64,000 nucleotides of DNA from Methanoculleus taiwanensis. GTDB lineage: Archaea > Halobacteriota > Methanomicrobia > Methanomicrobiales > Methanoculleaceae. Position 1 is the stretch's first letter. Each line of letters opens with the position of its first letter. The notes beneath the pieces were generated by a model that had not been told where the DNA came from, made no database searches, and was given only the letters and a program-made list of their open reading frames with translations. Shown in pieces: positions 25,213-34,405 of the stretch. A program made the translations under genes and the position numbers. The stretch is from contig NZ_LHQS01000002.1 in NCBI RefSeq assembly GCF_004102725.1, positions 425,984-489,983 of the forward strand, in the 5' to 3' direction.

Positions 25213-25557
25213 TCACTTCACGCCCGTTCCCCTGAAGAACGTGTAGCAGAACGTCCCGTCCCTGAAGGGGAGGTGCATGATATCCGCCTGCCCGAACCGG
25301 ACGCCGGGATCCCTCCGGCGTGCCTGCAGTACGGAGGATGCGGCGATGTCCACGGAGACGATCGCCGCCCCCGGGCTGTTTTCTGCAAGGATCACCGTCT
25401 GTGCACCGACCCCGCACCCCGCCTCGAGCACGAGGCTCCCCGCAGGATAGCGGGTGTCACTATGCAGCAGTTCCGTCAGCGTCTCTGCTGGATCGTGGAG
25501 GCGATCCGATTCGCGCTCGGAATCGCCGTGGATGTACGCTCTTCTGCCTTCCGCCAT
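25213..25557 (-). pseudogene. Truncated SAM-dependent class I methyltransferase
   Basis: From the ATG at 25557 the frame gives 114 residues: an N-terminal region (HDPAETLTELLHSDTRYPAG), SAM motif I VLEAGCGVGAQT, motif II IVSVDIA and motif III-IV QADIMHLPFRDGTF, then it ends after C-Y-T-F-F-R-G-T-G-V-K. Full-length relatives carry on for roughly another 150 residues, including the rest of the Rossmann sheet, and nothing downstream resembles it. I call it a 3'-truncated gene. The overlapping opposite-strand frames have no motif. Confidence 0.7.
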
Positions 25558-25648: not shown

Positions 25649-26419
25649 TCATCGCCTCCGCCGTTCACACGCATCGAGCAGCCGCTCTGCAAGCTCCCGC
25701 ACCGCCGTCCTGGCAGGGCTGCTGTCCGGAATACCGACGATCGGCTCGCCGGCAAGATCCGCCTGCTCCACGGCCGGGTCTTCGGGAACGGTGGCTATCA
25801 GGGGGAGTACGGTGCCAAGCTCCGTCTCTTCTCTGTTGATGCCGTCCCGAACGCGGTTGACGCAGAGGAACATCCGGTCCTGCGCCAGACCGAGCGTTCC
25901 GGCGATCTCCCGTATCCTCCGGGCGGTCCGGATCCCCCGGGCACCGGGATCGCTCACGATGAGCAGAACGTCGGGGTTCTTCACGGTCCCCCGCGCGATA
26001 TGCTCCATGCCTGCCTCGGAGTCGACGACGACGAACCGGTAGTCGCGTTCCAGCGTGCCGATGCACTCCGAAAGGAGGGCGTTCGGGAAGCAGTAGCACC
26101 CCGACCCTTCCGGGCGCCCCATGGCGAGAAGGTCAAAGCCTTCCGCTTCTGCCAGCACCCGGTGGAACCGGAATTTGATATAGCCGGTGCGGTCCATGCC
26201 CGGCGGGATGCTCTCCGTGAAGGCCTTCTCGCGCACGTTCCCCAGCGTCTCCTCGAGCGCAATTCCGAGCGCTTCGTTGAGGTTCGTGTTGGGATCGGCG
26301 TCGACGGCCAGGACCGGCCGCTCACCTGCCGCAATCAGGGCATCGATCAGCAGCGCGGTAATCGTCGTCTTGCCTGTCCCTCCTTTCCCGGATACGACGA
26401 TGGTGCAGGGTAGGTTCAT
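25649..26419 (-). CDS. cooC: CooC/AcsF-family nickel-insertion ATPase
   Basis: A 256-residue MinD-like P-loop ATPase. The deviant Walker A motif is SGKGGTGKTT (residues 10-19), and C108-x-C110 in GSGCYCF is the dimer metal-binding CxC pair of CooC proteins that load nickel into carbon monoxide dehydrogenase or, for the AcsF homologue, acetyl-CoA synthase. AVDADPNTNLNEALG and VVVDSEAGMEHIARGT are typical too. It is the last gene of the operon, overlapping the MetE-like gene by 4 bases. As no CO dehydrogenase gene is near, loading the acetyl-CoA synthase A-cluster (the AcsF role) is the more likely job. Confidence 0.88.
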   Translation of the reverse strand: MNLPCTIVVSGKGGTGKTTITALLIDALIAAGERPVLAVDADPNTNLNEALGIALEETLGNVREKAFTESIPPGMDRTGYIKFRFHRVLAEAEGFDLLAMGRPEGSGCYCFPNALLSECIGTLERDYRFVVVDSEAGMEHIARGTVKNPDVLLIVSDPGARGIRTARRIREIAGTLGLAQDRMFLCVNRVRDGINREETELGTVLPLIATVPEDPAVEQADLAGEPIVGIPDSSPARTAVRELAERLLDACERRRR

Positions 26420-27450
26420 GCCGCCTCCTCCCGGGCACGGCGGGAGAGTTCGGCGGCGGTCTGCATGATCGCCTCCGCGTCCGGCACGTCGGCAAGCCTG
26501 ATGCCGCAGGTGGGGGTGATCAGTGAGCGCTCATTAAAGAGGCGGTCTCCCACGAGATCGGTGACTTTGCTGCGGATCTGCATGAATCGGTCAAAGAGCG
26601 CATCGAGGCTCTCGGCAGCATAGAGGTGCGGTTCGGAGGGGACGATGCCCCAGGCGATCACCCCGCCCGCCTCCAGGTAGGCGGCCAGGTCGTCAGCGTA
26701 GAGGAGGAACTCCCGGGCGTGCTGGTACGCGTCGAACGAGATCACGGCGGGCTCAAGCGACATAAGGAAGCCCCAGTCGGTGTTGGAGCAGCAGTGAATC
26801 CCAAGACTCCCCTCGAGGAGACCGGCGGCATCGGAGACGCTCGAGCGTACGACCTCCTCGTCGACCGGAACGACCGAAGACCCCAGTGCCGCCAGGTACG
26901 GCTCGTCCAGGACGATCAGCGTCCGTTTGGCACCCGTTCGCTCACGCATGACCGTCTCGCACCACTTTGCCCGGAGCGCGATCATCTTGTTCAGCACGTC
27001 GGCGTACTCGGGGTCGTAGTGGATCGGCCTTTTGCGCTCATCCACCACCTGCATCCCGAAGGTGACCGATCCTGTGAGCTGGAATTTGAAGACGAGCACA
27101 TCGGAGAGATCGAAAGAGAGCATCCGGTGGAACGCCGAACCGTACGCCTCTCCGACTGCGTATGGGGCGGCGTTCCCTTCCAGGTAGTCGAGCAGGATCT
27201 GCTCCATCGCCGGCGCATGGCTGCCCGATGTGTCGACCGTCAGCCGCTCATCCGCGAGCACCCTGCCTGGGAGGTGTTCCGAGTCGCAGAAGACGATCCG
27301 TTCGAGGAGCCCCCTGTTCGGGAGTGTCGGTGCGTACGGCACCCGGGGAAAGGCTGCCAGAACCGACCGGCATGCCGCGTCCGGGTCGAGGTGGGGAAGC
27401 GCCCCGATACCGGTCGCGTGCAGGTCCATCTGCGGGAGCATCGTCGCCAT
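26416..27450 (-). CDS. MetE-like (core) zinc methyltransferase, putative corrinoid-dependent methionine synthase
   Basis: A 344-residue UROD/MetE-like TIM barrel, the size of the catalytic half of MetE without the N-terminal folate domain. The zinc ligands fit: H219-x-C221 in GIHCCSNTDW and C315 in TPTCGIRLAD, with the VISFDAYQ strand between. Short MetE proteins ('core MetE') in Dehalococcoides and methanogens take the methyl group from a methyl-corrinoid protein rather than methyl-folate. Here the gene sits 4 bases after the corrinoid activator and in one operon with both corrinoid protein subunits, so methyl-corrinoid to homocysteine transfer is the most economical guess. Another thiol acceptor such as coenzyme M is possible. 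Confidence 0.75.
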   Translation of the reverse strand: MATMLPQMDLHATGIGALPHLDPDAACRSVLAAFPRVPYAPTLPNRGLLERIVFCDSEHLPGRVLADERLTVDTSGSHAPAMEQILLDYLEGNAAPYAVGEAYGSAFHRMLSFDLSDVLVFKFQLTGSVTFGMQVVDERKRPIHYDPEYADVLNKMIALRAKWCETVMRERTGAKRTLIVLDEPYLAALGSSVVPVDEEVVRSSVSDAAGLLEGSLGIHCCSNTDWGFLMSLEPAVISFDAYQHAREFLLYADDLAAYLEAGGVIAWGIVPSEPHLYAAESLDALFDRFMQIRSKVTDLVGDRLFNERSLITPTCGIRLADVPDAEAIMQTAAELSRRAREEAA

Positions 27451-27454
27451 CCGA

Positions 27455-29356
27455 TCACCCCCGCCTCATCCTGCACGCCTCGAGCGTCTGCTGCACCTTC
27501 GGGAAGAGGGTAAGATCGGTATGCGGCAGGAAGCAGCTTGATGTATACCGGTCCATGAACGACGGCTCCGCGTTCAGCTCGATGTAGGTGATCCTCTGTG
27601 CGAGGGCATCCAGCAGCTTGCGGGACTGCCGGTTGATCAGGGCGATGTTCGCGCCGGTGATCGCGCCGTTCCCGATGTTCTTCACCTGATCCAGCCCCAC
27701 TTCGGGGATCAGCCCGATGGTGATGGCGTTCTCCTTATTGATGTAGTTCCCGAACGCCCCGGAGAAGTAGACCGTGGCGATCTCCCCGTGATCGAGGCCT
27801 GCCGCGTCAAGGAGCGTCATGCATGCGCCAAGGATTGCAGCTTTGCTCATGATCAGGTTCTTGATATCGTTCTCGGTGATGACGATATCCTTGGCGACCG
27901 CTGTCTCCTCCTTCCATGCCACCACAAACTCCGGACAGTAGCGCCCTCTCCTGACCCGGGGATTTTCGATCTCCATGTTGATATTGCCGTTCCGGTCGAT
28001 GACGCATGCGCGGATCAGCTCGGCGAGCAGATCGATGAGCCCCGATCCGCAGATGCCCTGCGGTCCGGCACCGTTGATCGTCGTGAAGGTCGGGGTGAGC
28101 GTGTCGCCGTTGATCCGGACACGCTCGATCGCGCCCGGGTTCGCACGCATCCCGAAGAGCACCTCCCCGCCCTCGAGGGCAGGCCCGGCCGCGCCTGCAC
28201 AGGAGAGCATCCAGTCGCTGTTGCCGAGGACCGCCTCGAAGTTCGTGCCGATGTCCACCAGGAGCGAAACCTCCTCGCGCTCTGCCATGCCGCTGGCCAG
28301 AATGTCGGCGATGATGTCGCCGCCGATGAAGTTGGAGACCGCCGGGAAGGTATAGACACCGGCATTCCGGTGGGTCGCAATCCCGATCCGGCCGGCGGCG
28401 GTCGAGAGCATCCGGCGCACCGCAGGCGTATACGGCTCTGCGATCATGTAGGCGGGGTCGATCCCGAGCAGGAGATGGGTCATCACCGTGTTGCCCGCGA
28501 TCATCACTTCGAAGATGTCTTCGAGGTCGATACCGGCGGCATCGGCGGCGGCGCACAATGCATCGTTAATGCTCTCGGCCGCCAGCTGCTGCAGCCGGGC
28601 AAGGCCGCCTTTCCGTGCAAAGGTCACCCGGGAGAGGATGTCTTCACCGCAGCTGATCTGCCTGTTGTAGTTCGATGCCGTGGCCGCAATCCGGCCGTCT
28701 GCCAGACTCCAGATGTAGACCACGATCGTGGTGGTTCCGAGATCCACGGCAGCCCCGTAGAGCCGGTTGCTGCTGTCCCCTTCGTCCACGTGAAGCAGCC
28801 GGTATCCGCCGGGAACCAGCGCGACGGTCGCGGTCATATTCCAGTTCCCCTGGCGGAGCGCCCTGGGGAGGTACTGGAGGACGTCCAGCGGCACGTAGAT
28901 CCGGTTCGGGCGCGGGCCTCCCTGCCGCTCGATCCCTTCGAGCAGCCGGTTGACGTCCGGGGTGGTATCGTCCAGGGATGGCGGGGAGAGGCGGAGGACG
29001 TACTTCCGGACTGCGGGATCGGGCGGAATTTCCGTCCCGGGAAACTCCACCAGGATCTTCTGCTGCTGCACGAGCGACTGTTCGGGAACCTCCACCCGTA
29101 GGTCGTTGACGACGAACGTCTGGCATGCAAGGCAGGCCCCCCGTGCGATCTCCTCGTCCGCAAAGAACCGGCGGTACTTCTCCAGGTCGAAGGAGGCGGT
29201 CCCGCTTTTTAGGAAGACAATGCATTTCCCGCATTTCCCCTGGCCGCCGCATACGACGTTCATATGAAGGCCGGCCGCTATAGCCGCCTCGAGGAGCGAG
29301 TCTCCCTGGTGCACGGTCGCCTTCCGGTAACCGGGCAGGAACGTGACGGTGGGCAT
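27455..29356 (-). CDS. ASKHA-domain reductive activator of corrinoid iron-sulfur protein (RACo/RamA-like) with N-terminal ferredoxin
   Basis: A 633-residue protein. The N-terminal plant-type [2Fe-2S] ferredoxin has C36-x5-C42-x2-C45 in VVCGGQGKCGKCIVF and a fourth Cys in CLACQ (C78). A linker leads to a large ASKHA ATPase domain: YGAAVDLGTTTIVVYIWSL, MIAGNTVMTHLLLGIDP, LLVDIGTNFEAVLG and YFSGAFGNYINKENA. Such proteins use ATP to reduce Co(II) in corrinoid proteins back to Co(I) after accidental oxidation. Lacking a C-terminal 2x[4Fe-4S] domain, it is of the RACo rather than the RamA type. It starts right after the CdhE stop. Confidence 0.9.
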   Translation of the reverse strand: MPTVTFLPGYRKATVHQGDSLLEAAIAAGLHMNVVCGGQGKCGKCIVFLKSGTASFDLEKYRRFFADEEIARGACLACQTFVVNDLRVEVPEQSLVQQQKILVEFPGTEIPPDPAVRKYVLRLSPPSLDDTTPDVNRLLEGIERQGGPRPNRIYVPLDVLQYLPRALRQGNWNMTATVALVPGGYRLLHVDEGDSSNRLYGAAVDLGTTTIVVYIWSLADGRIAATASNYNRQISCGEDILSRVTFARKGGLARLQQLAAESINDALCAAADAAGIDLEDIFEVMIAGNTVMTHLLLGIDPAYMIAEPYTPAVRRMLSTAAGRIGIATHRNAGVYTFPAVSNFIGGDIIADILASGMAEREEVSLLVDIGTNFEAVLGNSDWMLSCAGAAGPALEGGEVLFGMRANPGAIERVRINGDTLTPTFTTINGAGPQGICGSGLIDLLAELIRACVIDRNGNINMEIENPRVRRGRYCPEFVVAWKEETAVAKDIVITENDIKNLIMSKAAILGACMTLLDAAGLDHGEIATVYFSGAFGNYINKENAITIGLIPEVGLDQVKNIGNGAITGANIALINRQSRKLLDALAQRITYIELNAEPSFMDRYTSSCFLPHTDLTLFPKVQQTLEACRMRRG

Positions 29357-30685
29357 CTAGGTTCTCCACTCCTTCTCCAGGTACCCGGCGAGCTCAGCCG
29401 CGTCCCGTGGGCCTACCAGCACCTTCCAGCCGGTTTCGTCCTCGATCTTTCCGGAGAGGGGGGCGGCATAGCCCGGGATGATCAGCTGCCGGTGGTCTAC
29501 CTTTTCATTGAGGCTGAACTGCTTGATGGACGCAGCAACCAGGGATTCGGTCAGTTTCCCGCCGGCGACTGCGGTGAGCACCGAGAGCCCTTCGGTGTCC
29601 ACCACAAAGAGGTGGCAGGGGATGCGGGACGCCTCCAGGTAGCCGAGCAGGGTGAAGTAGGTGAGCGAGAAGTTCACTGAGAGGAGCACGGGAGCATCGC
29701 GCCCTGGTTCGTTGACCGGGTAGATGCCCGGCGTCATCTGGATGGGTTTCTGCGGGTCGGTGTAGATGTTCTGCCGCAGGGTGAGTGCCGCCTCCATGGA
29801 GGCGGGCGAAAGCGGTTCGGTGACGATGATCCCGGCGTACTTCAGGACGCCTGCTGCAAGGGCGGCGTCGGTGATGCCGAGCGGTACGGTGTCGAAGACG
29901 ATCGGGTAGCCGAGATCGGGGTCGGTCCGCTCGATCGCGGCCTTTCTGATCCGGGTCGCGGCGGCGATGAACTCGCGGAGCGATCCCGGTGCGATATCCA
30001 GCATGAGGTCAGGGACGCCGGCACCGACGCAGTTCCTGACAAGACTGGTGAGCGTCTTTACGTCGCCGGCCCGTACCGCCAGCGGGCAGCCGTAGCGCTT
30101 CGCAAGCGCCGCACATTCGCGCCAGTTTCTGTCGGTTGCGGCATGGATGAGCGGCAGGAAGTTCCCGCACTCCGCCAGTGCCGCCTCGTGGGCTGCCGGA
30201 TCGGCGGCGATCAGAACCTCGGGCAGGTCGCCGCAGGCCTCGACCAGCGCCACGGTCTCTGCAAACTGCGTCGGAGACCCGCTCTCGTTGCGGATGGCAA
30301 TACCGTCGAGCATCAGGTCCGTCCCGACCCGGTGGACAACGCTGTCACGGACATCCTCCGCGACGGTCCGCACCTGCTCTTCTGGCCAGGTATCGGAGAT
30401 ATGCACCATGATCCCCGGCGGGTGGTAGAAGGTCTTTTCATGCCGGAAAAGGACGAACTCCTCTCCGACGGTGACCGAGCGCTCACCGACGCCGACCTTC
30501 ACGAGCCGGATTGGGGGACGGGTCGCACCGCCGAGGAGCGTTTTGGTTTCGGGATCGAGGTCAGGACACAGCTCCACATCCGCCTTGCCGGCTGCAAGCT
30601 TCATGGCAAAGGCAAGACAGGTGGGATAGCCGCATTTCTTGCAGTTCGTCTTTGGGAGGAGTTTGTAGATCTCCAGCGCCTTCAT
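29357..30685 (-). CDS. cdhE: Corrinoid iron-sulfur protein large subunit (acetyl-CoA synthase gamma subunit)
   Basis: A 442-residue CdhE/AcsC. The N-terminal [4Fe-4S] motif is C15-x2-C18-x4-C23-x16-C40 (TNCKKCGYPTCLAFAMKL), followed by a TIM barrel (for example VPDLMLDIAPGS and PIVFDTVPLGITDAALAAG) and a C-terminal B12-binding domain. With CdhD it carries the methyl group on cobalt between a methyltransferase and the synthase A-cluster. I start at the ATG at 30685, with a GGAGGTGTGACC ribosome-binding stretch before it; an in-frame GTG two codons earlier is possible. It begins 8 bases after the cdhD stop. Confidence 0.93.
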   Translation of the reverse strand: MKALEIYKLLPKTNCKKCGYPTCLAFAMKLAAGKADVELCPDLDPETKTLLGGATRPPIRLVKVGVGERSVTVGEEFVLFRHEKTFYHPPGIMVHISDTWPEEQVRTVAEDVRDSVVHRVGTDLMLDGIAIRNESGSPTQFAETVALVEACGDLPEVLIAADPAAHEAALAECGNFLPLIHAATDRNWRECAALAKRYGCPLAVRAGDVKTLTSLVRNCVGAGVPDLMLDIAPGSLREFIAAATRIRKAAIERTDPDLGYPIVFDTVPLGITDAALAAGVLKYAGIIVTEPLSPASMEAALTLRQNIYTDPQKPIQMTPGIYPVNEPGRDAPVLLSVNFSLTYFTLLGYLEASRIPCHLFVVDTEGLSVLTAVAGGKLTESLVAASIKQFSLNEKVDHRQLIIPGYAAPLSGKIEDETGWKVLVGPRDAAELAGYLEKEWRT

Positions 30686-30693
30686 CGCCACGG

Positions 30694-31644
30694 TCACACC
30701 TCCTTTTGGCCGGAGGCCGGTTGCATCGCCGCAAGGGCGTTCTTGAGGCGTGCCACGGTCATCGGGTGCCGGACGCAGACGATCGAGGCGCCTGCCGCCA
30801 GGGCGGAAAAGGCGGTGTAGAACTCCCAGGCAACCGCCATCGCGTCTCTGTCGCCGGCCGCCGCCTCTCTCACCTCCCTGACCGCAAGCGCATCGGTGGC
30901 GGCGCTGATCATCGGCATGGCGAGATCGGCATCTCCGGCGAGCCCGGCCGTCCGGATCCGCTCCATCACCGAGTACGAGTACTCGAACCCGTACCCGAGC
31001 GCTCCCGTGTAGGGATCGATTACGATCCGATCTCGCGCTACACCGGTCTCCTGCAGAAGGATGTTCAGCTGCTTTGCCAGGTTGATGTCGATAGGGGACT
31101 GGGCGATCACCGCGTGGCCGTAGGCGAGCGCCGCGGCGGCGACGCTCCGGTAGCGGTCGGCTTCCGCGGTCCCGAGCAGAAGCCGTTCTCCCTCTCCGGC
31201 CTCGCCGCACCGCCTGAAGACCTCGCTGTCGAGCTCCGGTTCGCTGCTCCCCTCTACGATGAGGGGACGGGATGTTGCCGCAAGCACCTGTTCCATCGTT
31301 TTGGTGATCCCGGGAAAATCGTCGAAACCGCGCTGCTTTGTGCTGGTGAAGTTCAGCCGCACCAGATCCGCACCCCAGGTGCGCTCCGCCGTCTTCGCCC
31401 ATTCGTCGGGTTGATCCGCGAGATCCCCCACGTATTCGCGGATAACCGGCGGCCAGAACTGGGTTTCGTCGCAGATCTCAAGCGCAACGAGCAGCCGGTC
31501 GGGCTCTGCCTCCGTGAAGGGGAGTTTCGTTTCTCCGCCGATCCTGTAGGAGACCTCCCGCGTCCCCCCCTCGCTCCGGGTGGCACCGAGCTGCACTTCG
31601 AGTACTGCATCTTCTTTCTCTGTCAACTGCATCTCCGTCCTCAA
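30694..31644 (-). CDS. cdhD: Corrinoid iron-sulfur protein small subunit (acetyl-CoA synthase delta subunit)
   Basis: A 316-residue CdhD/AcsD TIM-barrel subunit. LEVQLGATRSEGGTREVSYR, IGGETKLPFTEAE, ADLVRLNFTST, PLIVEGSSEPELDSEV, VIAQSPIDINLAKQLNILL and IVIDPYTGALGYGFEYSYS are family hallmarks. It is nearer the length of bacterial AcsD (about 310-320) than of the longer methanosarcinal CdhD (about 400 or more). It pairs with CdhE to hold the corrinoid. Start overlaps the synthase gene by 4 bases. Confidence 0.92.
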   Translation of the reverse strand: MRTEMQLTEKEDAVLEVQLGATRSEGGTREVSYRIGGETKLPFTEAEPDRLLVALEICDETQFWPPVIREYVGDLADQPDEWAKTAERTWGADLVRLNFTSTKQRGFDDFPGITKTMEQVLAATSRPLIVEGSSEPELDSEVFRRCGEAGEGERLLLGTAEADRYRSVAAAALAYGHAVIAQSPIDINLAKQLNILLQETGVARDRIVIDPYTGALGYGFEYSYSVMERIRTAGLAGDADLAMPMISAATDALAVREVREAAAGDRDAMAVAWEFYTAFSALAAGASIVCVRHPMTVARLKNALAAMQPASGQKEV

Positions 31645-33671
31645 ATAAGGGGTTTCATCTTCAGCACCGGATGGTCGACGCGTTCAAGGAACGCAATCAG
31701 GTCGTCAAGCGTCGGTGCGGTCGTCTCGTCGGCGATCTTTTCCGAGATGTTCGGCATGTCCAGGCTCTCCAGTCTCGCACGTAGCCGATCCCGGAGTTCC
31801 TCCTTGAGGGTCGACGGCATCCAGACGACCCGTTCGATGCCGTTCTCTGCCTGGAGGAACCGGTCGCTGACGATATAGTTCCTGGATACTCCGACGAATC
31901 CCGGGGTCTGCGCCCCGCCCCCGATGGTGCCGGCAAGGGTGGAGAAGGTCATCCCGAGCGGGGTCTCACCACCGAAGTCACGGTTGACGATCAGGATGCC
32001 GCTCACCTCCGGGACGATGGCGGCGATGCACTCAAAGCATCCGCAGGCGGTCATCGGGTTCTCCAGCATGCTGTACAGGGAAACCCGGTCAGTCTCGCCG
32101 TGGGATGCCTTCTTCACGAACCGGTTCACGCCTGCAAACTCTCCGAGCACCGGATCGATCACATCGCCTTTCCGGACGGGCTGGTTTGCCCCGGCCGGGG
32201 TGATCTCGTATGCGATGCGGGCATCAAGCCAGGTGATGGCGCCGCAGAGTGCGGGGCGCTCGGGAGTGATGATGCAGACGTGGTTTGGGGCGAACGTCTG
32301 GCAGAGTGTGCAGGAGTAGAAGGTCTCCGTGTCTTCGTCCTTCATGCCGGCGATACGCTCATCCCGTTCGGCATAGAGTGTACGCGCCTCCGGGAGCATC
32401 TCCCTGACCTTTTGGCCGTCGGTGACCAGCGTCACCTGCACTGCATCGATATGGTCGGGAAACTCCATCCTGAACTTGTGGGCGAGCAGCGTTCCGAGAT
32501 CGCCGATCGTCACCCCTTTGGCGACCGCATCCTTCGAGATACGGACCCAGATCATGTCCCGCTGCGCGACATGCCAGGACCCCTCGCCGTAGTTGATGAA
32601 CGTGTGGATTCTCCGCTCCAGTACCGGTTCAAAGTCCTTCTTCATCCTCTGCCCTGCGACATCCACGAGGACGGCAAGGGGGAGAGCGGTGCCCGGGGCG
32701 ACCGAGTCCACGTCCGGGCCGACGACGCTGACCGCACCGTCACGGAACTCTTCTTGCGGGCGCATCCGGAGGAGTTCGAATGCCGGTGTCCGTCCCCCGC
32801 CGAACTCCACGTACATCTCTTCCTTGCGGATGCTCTTCCCCTCAAAGGCGGGAGAACAGGCCATGGGGATAGGTATCGCAGTGACGGCGACCCTGATCCC
32901 TCGCATCTCCATTCCCGTCCTGACCGTATCGGCGGGAGCGGTGCGGATCCAGGTCCCTCCTTCGTAGCCGCCCGTCGTGAGGATCGGAATCCCGAGAACC
33001 TGCAGTGCCTCGACGAATGCGATCTCCTCCTCCGTGAGACCGGGGAAGGCAACGACGAATGCCTTTGCCCGTTCCGCAGCGTAGACCAGCAGGCGGTCGA
33101 GATCGCCGGGTTGGACTCCGCCGAACATCATCGCGACACGGGCGATGATATCGGCAAAGTGGATCCCATCCGCCCCGTCGGGGCCGAGCGGCACCAGGCG
33201 GTAATCGAGCCCCACGTGGACGCCGGCCTCACCCAGGGCCGATACGACCCCGCCCGCGAGGAACGTGAGCATGTACTTCTCCTGCAGCTCCCTGCAGATG
33301 GCGGCCGCCGCTTCACCGCTCTCAGGCGTCCCCACGAGCAGACCGATGCCGACGACACTCCCGTCGACCAGCGAGTAGCCGAGCTTCCGCAGTATGGCAT
33401 CGCCGATAAATCCCGTGTATGGCTCCTTCTTGCCGCCTTCCGAGGCGCTCCGTGCCGCCATCAGGCACTCGGATGCGACGAGCGGATTCATTCCCGACCG
33501 CTCGTATGCATCCCGGGCATCATCTGCGGTCTGCACGGCTATGCCGGTGACGGCATACGTGACGGGGAGGGCGTATGCGGTCCCTTCGTATGAGAACTGC
33601 CCTTCCAGCCGTTGCATGGCCCCATCGAGGCTGGCATTTCCGTGCTGCACCGCCGCATCGATACTGTTCAT
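31641..33671 (-). CDS. cdhC: Acetyl-CoA synthase (A-cluster subunit), bacterial-size
   Basis: 676 residues from the ATG at 33671. All six A-cluster ligands of the Ni-Ni-[4Fe-4S] site line up: C454-x2-C457-x8-C466-x9-C476 (YSCTLCQTF to PALCG) and C543-G-C545 in TACGCFEC. The enzyme joins or splits CO, a corrinoid-bound methyl group and CoA. Archaeal CdhC usually has about 400-470 residues and lacks the N-terminal CO dehydrogenase-contacting domain; here about 300 residues (VGIGLLVGTPESGEAAAAIC, RLVPLGPDGADGIHFADII) precede the core, as in bacterial AcsB (about 730). First gene of the operon. ACS sits next to its corrinoid protein, activator and Ni ATPase, but no CODH gene. Confidence 0.93.
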   Translation of the reverse strand: MNSIDAAVQHGNASLDGAMQRLEGQFSYEGTAYALPVTYAVTGIAVQTADDARDAYERSGMNPLVASECLMAARSASEGGKKEPYTGFIGDAILRKLGYSLVDGSVVGIGLLVGTPESGEAAAAICRELQEKYMLTFLAGGVVSALGEAGVHVGLDYRLVPLGPDGADGIHFADIIARVAMMFGGVQPGDLDRLLVYAAERAKAFVVAFPGLTEEEIAFVEALQVLGIPILTTGGYEGGTWIRTAPADTVRTGMEMRGIRVAVTAIPIPMACSPAFEGKSIRKEEMYVEFGGGRTPAFELLRMRPQEEFRDGAVSVVGPDVDSVAPGTALPLAVLVDVAGQRMKKDFEPVLERRIHTFINYGEGSWHVAQRDMIWVRISKDAVAKGVTIGDLGTLLAHKFRMEFPDHIDAVQVTLVTDGQKVREMLPEARTLYAERDERIAGMKDEDTETFYSCTLCQTFAPNHVCIITPERPALCGAITWLDARIAYEITPAGANQPVRKGDVIDPVLGEFAGVNRFVKKASHGETDRVSLYSMLENPMTACGCFECIAAIVPEVSGILIVNRDFGGETPLGMTFSTLAGTIGGGAQTPGFVGVSRNYIVSDRFLQAENGIERVVWMPSTLKEELRDRLRARLESLDMPNISEKIADETTAPTLDDLIAFLERVDHPVLKMKPLI

Positions 33672-33707: not shown

Positions 33708-33720
33708 GGTATAAATAGTC
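33708..33720 (-). promoter_or_regulatory. TATA box of the acetyl-CoA synthase operon
   Basis: Minus-strand GACTATTTATACC, about 43 bases before the synthase start at 33671, predicts a leader of about 15-20 bases. It is the only strong box in front of the six-gene operon, whose later genes overlap or abut. Confidence 0.65.
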
Positions 33721-33808: not shown

Positions 33809-34405
33809 CTACGGCATCTCGCTCTGCTCCGCAGGGCAGAAGTTGCAGAGCGAGTGAGGCACGTCTTTCTCCCGGTCGCGCACGGGGCAGAGGAATCTGC
33901 CGCTCCTCTCTTCCACGGCAAACCCGCCGGGAAACGGCATCCCGACCGGGTGGCCGGGGCGGTTGAGGACGAACATCTCGAATGCGGCGACGAGGTAGTA
34001 GAAGAAGCGGTGGCGGGGGCCGTAGTTGTCCGCCCCGGTATCGTCCCAGCAAAAGCACCCTTCCGGCACCATGGCGAAGTAGGCGGCGGCAGCCTCCCGG
34101 TCGGCGATCGGCTCCGCCATAGCAGTGAAGCGCCCGCTCCGGTGCATCGAGATGAGACGGTGGTACGCGCCGAGGATCTGCTCGGTGAAGTACGGGCGCA
34201 CCGCCTCGCGGTAGGGTGAAGGAAGGCTCGCGACCTCCCGGTAGAGCCGTCCGCCGATCACCTGGAGATCGGCGAGCGTGTAGCGTTCCGCCTCGCGGGC
34301 GAGCAAGGTGCCGAGCTCGGCCTTTGTCCGTGCGGATGCAAGTAGGGCGCAGACTCCCTCGATATGCAGGCGTTCTGAATCCGCAGCGTGTCTGCTGTTG
34401 TGCAT
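33809..34405 (-). CDS. DUF2115 (UPF0305) protein
   Basis: A 198-residue protein of a family found mainly in methanogens and of unknown function. Recognisable are YREAVRPYFTEQILGAYHRL, the central ECFCWDDTGADNYGP-type segment (GCFCWDDTGADNYGPRHRFF), the FPGGFAVEE stretch and the C-terminal FLCPVRDREKDVPHSLCNFC ending C-P-A-E-Q. The conserved cysteines suggest a metal or iron-sulfur site. It lies upstream of the acetyl-CoA synthase operon on the same strand, separated by that operon's own promoter. Confidence 0.8.
   Translation of the reverse strand: MHNSRHAADSERLHIEGVCALLASARTKAELGTLLAREAERYTLADLQVIGGRLYREVASLPSPYREAVRPYFTEQILGAYHRLISMHRSGRFTAMAEPIADREAAAAYFAMVPEGCFCWDDTGADNYGPRHRFFYYLVAAFEMFVLNRPGHPVGMPFPGGFAVEERSGRFLCPVRDREKDVPHSLCNFCPAEQSEMP

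Follow-up and report, generated by a model that had tools for sequence, protein, structure and literature searches.

Can an acetyl-CoA synthase (ACS) work without a carbon monoxide dehydrogenase (CODH) beside it? ACS is normally understood as one half of a gas-channelling complex. The question is raised by an operon of Methanoculleus taiwanensis (contig NZ_LHQS01000002.1, positions 425,984 to 489,983; this stretch of 64,000 nucleotides is called the window below). The operon encodes ACS, both subunits of the corrinoid iron-sulfur protein (CFeSP), a corrinoid activator, a MesB-like methyltransferase and a maturation ATPase, and there is no CODH gene within the 64-kb window. We propose that the six proteins form a stand-alone, CODH-free module of ACS, corrinoid protein and thiol methyltransferase, and that its net direction is most likely cleavage of acetyl-CoA; we regard this proposal as an even call. 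The features of the operon are, in window coordinates:

33710..33717, minus strand: TATA-like box TATTTATA, as read from the sequence
31641..33671, minus strand: acsB, acetyl-CoA synthase, 676 aa (NF040764, 907 bits)
30694..31644, minus strand: acsD, CFeSP small subunit (PF03599, E 1.4e-39; PRK04452 subfamily, 357 bits)
29357..30697 (start ~30697, GTG), minus strand: acsC, CFeSP large subunit with 4Fe-4S motif (PF03599, E 3.4e-97; PF04060 FeS; NF003195, 538 bits)
27455..29356, minus strand: acsV/RACo, ATP-dependent corrinoid reductive activator with 2Fe-2S domain (PF14574, PF17651, PF17650, Fer2)
26416..27450, minus strand: mesB-like core-MetE methyltransferase, 344 aa (alignment, AlphaFold2 model, residue counts)
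25649..26419, minus strand: acsF-type nickel-maturation ATPase (CbiA/MinD family; scoring against AcsF-position genes)

The original prediction, made from the sequence alone, described six tightly coupled genes read from one TATA box, and this description holds. All six genes lie on the minus strand in the order acsB-acsD-acsC-acsV-mesB-acsF, adjacent genes overlap or are separated by at most 5 bp, and a single TATA-like box is read 38 nt ahead of the start codon (ATG) of acsB. A sigma-70 scan gave no promoter evidence, as expected for an archaeon. Pfam and NCBIfam support all gene names except that of the MetE-like protein. The prediction had called the activator RACo-like; it is present, and its family is now corrected to AcsV, the match to NF040756 (562 bits) being below that model's cut-off of 800.

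The absence of CODH, also claimed in the prediction, extends to the whole source genome (G000; 2.75 Mb, 12 contigs, 99.98% complete). Searches of this genome gave zero matches for CdhB (PF02552), none for CooS (TIGR01702) at E<=1e-10, and only noise for CdhA (TIGR00314; best E 3.8e-5). The sole match to PF03063 (Prismane) was rejected as a CODH; it is a 538-aa hybrid-cluster protein (Hcp) starting with MFCYQCEE. The genome is without a CODH subunit, be it CooS/AcsA or CdhA, as a CODH/ACS complex would need. A CODH gene elsewhere in the genome had been named beforehand as a possible refutation, which was not triggered, because the genome searches give no CODH. The operon is not a contamination, since its ACS is 81% identical to the ACS of a complete genome from the same family and its gene order is common to Methanomicrobiales.

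How general is this arrangement? Two kinds of ACS were found in a survey of 199 Methanomicrobiales genomes, a long one (~676 aa, with A1 domain) and the short archaeal CdhC. The long ACS is present in 84 genomes, and it and the MesB-like gene co-occur in 83 of 84 genomes each way; in the lone genome with MesB and no long ACS the contig begins inside acsD. The short CdhC is found in 55 genomes, all with CdhA, so that CdhC and CdhA co-occur in 55 of 56. The p-values for co-occurrence are rough owing to the relatedness of the genomes; the MesB pattern is nonetheless close to all-or-none. CooS had to be counted separately, because several low-scoring CdhA matches fall on genes which TIGR01702 identifies as CooS at full score. 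Counting CdhA alone had given 44 genomes without it; with CooS counted as well, 16 without any CODH were left. These 16 genomes carry the long ACS and lack both CdhA and CooS; completeness is 90% or more in nine of them, and one genome of this kind (G004) consists of a single contig, 99% complete.

It could be argued that the long ACS uses a separately encoded, diffusible CODH, either CooS or CdhA. Some CODH is present in 68 of the 84 operon-bearing genomes, and in three genomes (only these) CooS is found within about 10 kb of the long ACS (8.7-10 kb). In the genome of the window, on the other hand, this explanation is refuted unless a CODH gene was left unassembled. CooS is not associated with the long ACS (48/84 genomes with it against 61/115 without it, p=0.67), CdhA goes with a short CdhC of its own, and the parts of ACS which serve a CODH are altered, as described below. 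We consider a loosely coupled CODH very improbable. CooS near the operon was also considered as a linked partner and rejected; in both loci which were read other sequence lies between them, and the proximity is not general. As a separate observation, a CooS-type CODH above cut-off is present in 101 of the 199 genomes, sometimes in two copies (e.g. G007, G083, G182), and many of the genomes without the long ACS have one. The Cdh genes of Methanospirillum hungatei (Mhun_0686-0690), whose role has been called undefined (PMC4704411), were rejected as a case of the same operon: the locus taken to be theirs (L090) is of the CdhA/short-CdhC type and the genome (G156) is without MesB.

The catalytic part of AcsB is intact. 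All A-cluster cysteines (Moorella C506, C509, C518, C528, C595 and C597) are found in the window protein and are identical across all aligned sequences bar one gap. Four of the five alcove residues (G145, V149, F229 and F512) are retained, F229 and F512 being invariant. The A1 domain is present: NF040764 matches over its cut-off, and the AlphaFold2 model (mean predicted local distance difference test score, pLDDT, 83), whose best PDB matches are solved ACS structures including 1ru3 and 7nyp, matches both full-length ACS and isolated A1 structures. With the A-cluster cysteines and an N-terminal A1 domain the window AcsB is an ACS of the bacterial type.

The N-terminus of AcsB is different. In both bacterial classes A1 is the domain which binds CODH (PMC11474084). 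The N-terminal part has ~80-87 residues compared to ~130-136 in most CODH-linked ACS, and the helical bundle preceding the A1 Rossmann fold is ~50 residues shorter. A shortened N-terminus is not a general rule for ACS without CODH; this was rejected as the Methanomassiliicoccus protein (L157), from a locus without CooS within 10 kb, still has 117 residues there.

The CO tunnel of the window AcsB carries the bulky residues Y99, I176, V179 and F219. The pattern of a CODH/ACS-type tunnel, which is small residues at 222 and 265 together with Ile, Leu, Val or Thr at 146 (Moorella numbering), is replaced by I176, F219 and Y99. Position 146, Ile in Moorella, is Tyr in 32 of 32 Methanomicrobiales sequences and in none of 59 others; in known enzymes this position (149 in C. 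hydrogenoformans) is Ile, Leu, Val or Thr (PMC12289521). Position 222 is bulky (A222I/L/V) in 32/32 and is Ala in 58/59 of the others, and position 265 is bulky (A265F/L/V) in 31/32. Only five of 27 alanines conserved outside Methanomicrobiales are bulky inside the order (222, 225, 265, 269 and 538), and four of the five sites fall in two short segments of A1. In C. hydrogenoformans the residues equivalent to 222 and 265 are A225 and A268; the variants A225L and A268M of this enzyme have been crystallised, their identities being read from the titles of the PDB entries. The corresponding Moorella variants A222L/A265M have reportedly also been engineered. By a crude count the chance that both 222 and 265 land in the bulky set is ~0.03. 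The C. hydrogenoformans query carries the letters of an engineered chain and served as search seed only, and the AlphaFold2 model of AcsB was taken for the fold, not for tunnel radii. Judged from these residues the CO tunnel of AcsB is probably filled or closed.

A missing CODH and a shortened N-terminus are also what a decaying, functionless remnant of a full bacterial CODH/ACS would show. Against decay stand the gene order and reading frames, which are maintained in five families, the invariant catalytic residues, and the retention of MesB in step with ACS; a remnant is hardly credible. The order AcsB-AcsD-AcsC-AcsV-MesB-AcsF, without CooS, is the same in all complete Methanomicrobiales operons compared. 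In most named bacterial loci, by comparison, CooS is found ~2 kb directly upstream of AcsB, followed by AcsC, AcsV, AcsF and AcsD.

The ATPase had been left as CooC- or AcsF-like in the original prediction. In all 30 loci containing both genes it scores higher against the AcsF-position gene than against the CooC-position gene (medians 211 and 93 bits), by which measure it is of the type of AcsF, the ACS maturation factor, and the CooC half of the label falls away. By this ~2-fold difference in all 30 loci the maturation factor, too, is of the ACS type. The shortened docking bundle, the apparently filled tunnel, the ACS-only maturation ATPase and the fixed coupling to a thiol methyltransferase together lead us to the view that this ACS seems to work without CODH. 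Other loci deserve mention. In Dethiobacter and relatives (L130, L131, L132) a CooC-like gene is found directly before AcsB, and no CooS was detected in the flank examined. In Methanomassiliicoccus (L157, 9782-16900) AcsB-AcsD-AcsC lie opposite AcsF-MesB-AcsV with no CooS within 10 kb; it is possibly a second methanogen lineage with a CODH-free set, as judged within these 10 kb. In Aminicenantes (L156, L160) MesB is found directly upstream of CooS-AcsB-AcsF-AcsD-AcsC, so MesB joins CODH-bearing operons too.

The constant partner of the long ACS, the MesB-like protein, matched no model in Pfam or NCBIfam, and nothing was found when the PDB was searched with its sequence. Its AlphaFold2 model (pLDDT 87) was compared with the PDB using Foldseek, and the 21 best matches are all MetE structures (best E 4.9e-8). 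The yardstick of the MesB family is D. mccartyi MesB (at least 130 bits or ~29% identity); the window protein was compared with other MesB-like proteins, and is 31-34% identical to those of Methanomassiliicoccus and Aminicenantes. It has the zinc ligands of MesB, His, Cys, Asp and Cys (H219, C221, D240 and C315), with MesB spacing, and these are conserved in every sequence not gapped there.

The mechanism which we propose is the following. AcsB would shuttle a methyl group between acetyl-CoA and the AcsCD corrinoid, which AcsV would re-reduce, and AcsF would load nickel into AcsB. The MesB-like zinc enzyme would pass the corrinoid-bound methyl group on to a thiol, for which homocysteine is the simplest candidate. 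The net reaction would be acetyl-CoA + thiol -> methyl-thioether + CO + CoA; the CO would escape into the solvent and would not travel through a tunnel to CODH. Cleavage is favoured as the direction because the genome has no source of CO, no methyl entry of the AcsE type was found, acetate-activating enzymes are encoded, and the gene constantly paired with the long ACS encodes a methyl acceptor enzyme. Concerning AcsE, PF00809 gives one gene over cut-off outside the operon and one weak match. Concerning acetate, two matches to AMP-forming acetyl-CoA synthetase are over cut-off, each reading through one stop codon. The acetate requirement of many Methanomicrobiales, invoked in the original prediction, is compatible with cleavage; it is not diagnostic, as this ACS and CODH of any kind are both missing from 49 of the 199 genomes.

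A number of observations weigh against this mechanism, and some of them concern the methyl acceptor. The simplest form of acetyl-CoA cleavage would be a methionine supply in the style of Dehalococcoides, with homocysteine as acceptor and methionine as the main product. The substrates of D. mccartyi MesB are methylcobalamin and homocysteine (PMC7005905, PMC7857596), and the window protein has the MetE fold and the zinc ligands. The Ser and Asp which hold homocysteine by its carboxyl and amino groups, said to be "mostly conserved" in MesB (Price et al., PMC7857596), are retained in the MesB-like proteins of Methanomassiliicoccus and Aminicenantes. In the window protein the Ser is replaced by Ala17 and the Asp is kept as D182; among 43 Methanomicrobiales MesB sequences, however, the equivalent of Ser433 is kept in only 6 and that of Asp599 in only 4. 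Moreover, MesB is not the sole methionine synthase, since the window genome encodes one of the MesA type, as do 83 of the 84 genomes with MesB. We regard methionine as main product as possible, yet doubtful. MtrH is present as well, in a single copy, and with MesA and this other methyl source a methyl group derived from acetate may not be needed. The acetyl-CoA-splitting methyl supply originally predicted is supported in part, for the CODH-free module, while the role in methionine synthesis is uncertain with the homocysteine pocket mostly lost across the order. Alternatively, the tunnel-less ACS could move the methyl group between acetyl-CoA and another thiol, e.g. coenzyme M, with free CO as the other partner. 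The retained zinc site and the lost amino-acid recognition of MesB would then reflect a changed substrate. We find this quite unlikely; if true, it would link acetyl-CoA to the methanogenic methyl pool.

The remaining objections concern the direction. As the main rival to cleavage, AcsB might run in synthesis, joining free CO from the environment or from other cells with the corrinoid methyl group to give acetyl-CoA, which would ease the acetate requirement. The methyl group would come from methyl-tetrahydromethanopterin (methyl-H4MPT) or a methylthioether, MesB being a side branch or the point of methyl entry. The A-cluster is complete, four of five alcove residues are kept, and there are crystal structures of monomeric ACS free of CODH (PDB 1ru3, 7nyp). 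The alcove change F229W raised CO binding 80-fold (PMC11321310), so an aromatic alcove residue can raise the affinity for CO, and such tightening could fit CO capture. A methanogen CFeSP might also take methyl from methyl-H4MPT without AcsE. In the tree the long ACS of Methanomicrobiales group together with full support, and the branch leading to them is long (0.72 changes per site); the tunnel changes therefore count as a single evolutionary episode, kept since, which also weighs against the proposed mechanism. On the other side, no gene for a methyl-H4MPT:CFeSP methyltransferase was found beyond MtrH, the regular companion of the long ACS is a thiol methyltransferase, and there is no linkage to a CO-producing enzyme. 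We hold synthesis to be unlikely, both in its direction and in these details of methyl supply, and retain cleavage by the CODH-free module as the likelier reading.

The neighbours of the operon are mentioned for completeness. Just downstream of acsF, at 25213-25557 on the minus strand, is a short open reading frame which matches Methyltransf_25 over positions 1-69 of 97 and is apparently truncated; a stretch 57% identical to it is found at the same place in another genome (G104, L088). Immediately upstream of the operon is a DUF2115 gene (33809-34405, minus strand), and a protein similar to it is encoded beside Hcp at another site of the genome (L001:688-1461).

What do these observations mean for ACS in general? 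The enzyme is widespread in these methanogens, and in this genome there is no CODH and tunnel residues are replaced at positions mutated to block CO passage. The operon is thus a natural test of the purpose of the tunnel, and it bears on the role of ACS in Methanomicrobiales unable to make acetyl-CoA from CO2. A literature search gave no report of the absence of CODH in Methanomicrobiales or of the tunnel, docking or pocket changes; Adam et al. 2018, which likely treats part of this, was not covered by the search.

An ACS without CODH together with a core-MetE was known from Dehalococcoides (PMC7005905). The incomplete Wood-Ljungdahl set of D. mccartyi, compared by description, likewise has ACS, CFeSP and MesB/core-MetE without AcsE (PMC7005905, PMC7857596), and cleavage of acetyl-CoA with release of CO has likewise been proposed. 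The present system differs in being a single operon including AcsV and AcsF, in a methanogen which has MesA and its own methyl-H4MPT pathway, and in the altered homocysteine-pocket residues of Methanomicrobiales. The analogy to Dehalococcoides drawn originally is partly supported: it is apt for the features of the CODH-free ACS and weaker for the methyl economy, as this organism, with MtrH and MesA, is not without another methyl source. Operons of mesB-acsC-acsD in some methanogens, and MesA together with MesB in some Methanomicrobiales, have been reported (Price et al. 2021, PMC7857596), and these operons are very probably the gene cluster described here. Price et al. assign the cluster to the Wood-Ljungdahl pathway, in a text containing neither "CODH" nor "carbon monoxide dehydrogenase"; the absence of CODH and the tunnel and pocket changes are not described there.

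Compared to the bacterial CODH/ACS of Moorella and Carboxydothermus, the AcsB, AcsC, AcsD, AcsV and AcsF homologues, the A-cluster and the A1 domain are shared. Here, in contrast, CooS is missing, the gene order is different, the bundle is ~50 aa shorter, and the tunnel carries I146Y, A222I/L/V and A265F/L/V. The archaeal acetyl-CoA decarbonylase/synthase (ACDS; CdhABCDE) performs related chemistry and also occurs in Methanomicrobiales, in some cases together with the long ACS in one genome. Its CdhC has no A1 domain, and a domain of CODH does the work of A1 instead (PMC11474084), whereas the window ACS has A1. The same study states that A1 is missing in all methanogens; the long ACS of Methanomicrobiales contradicts this statement.

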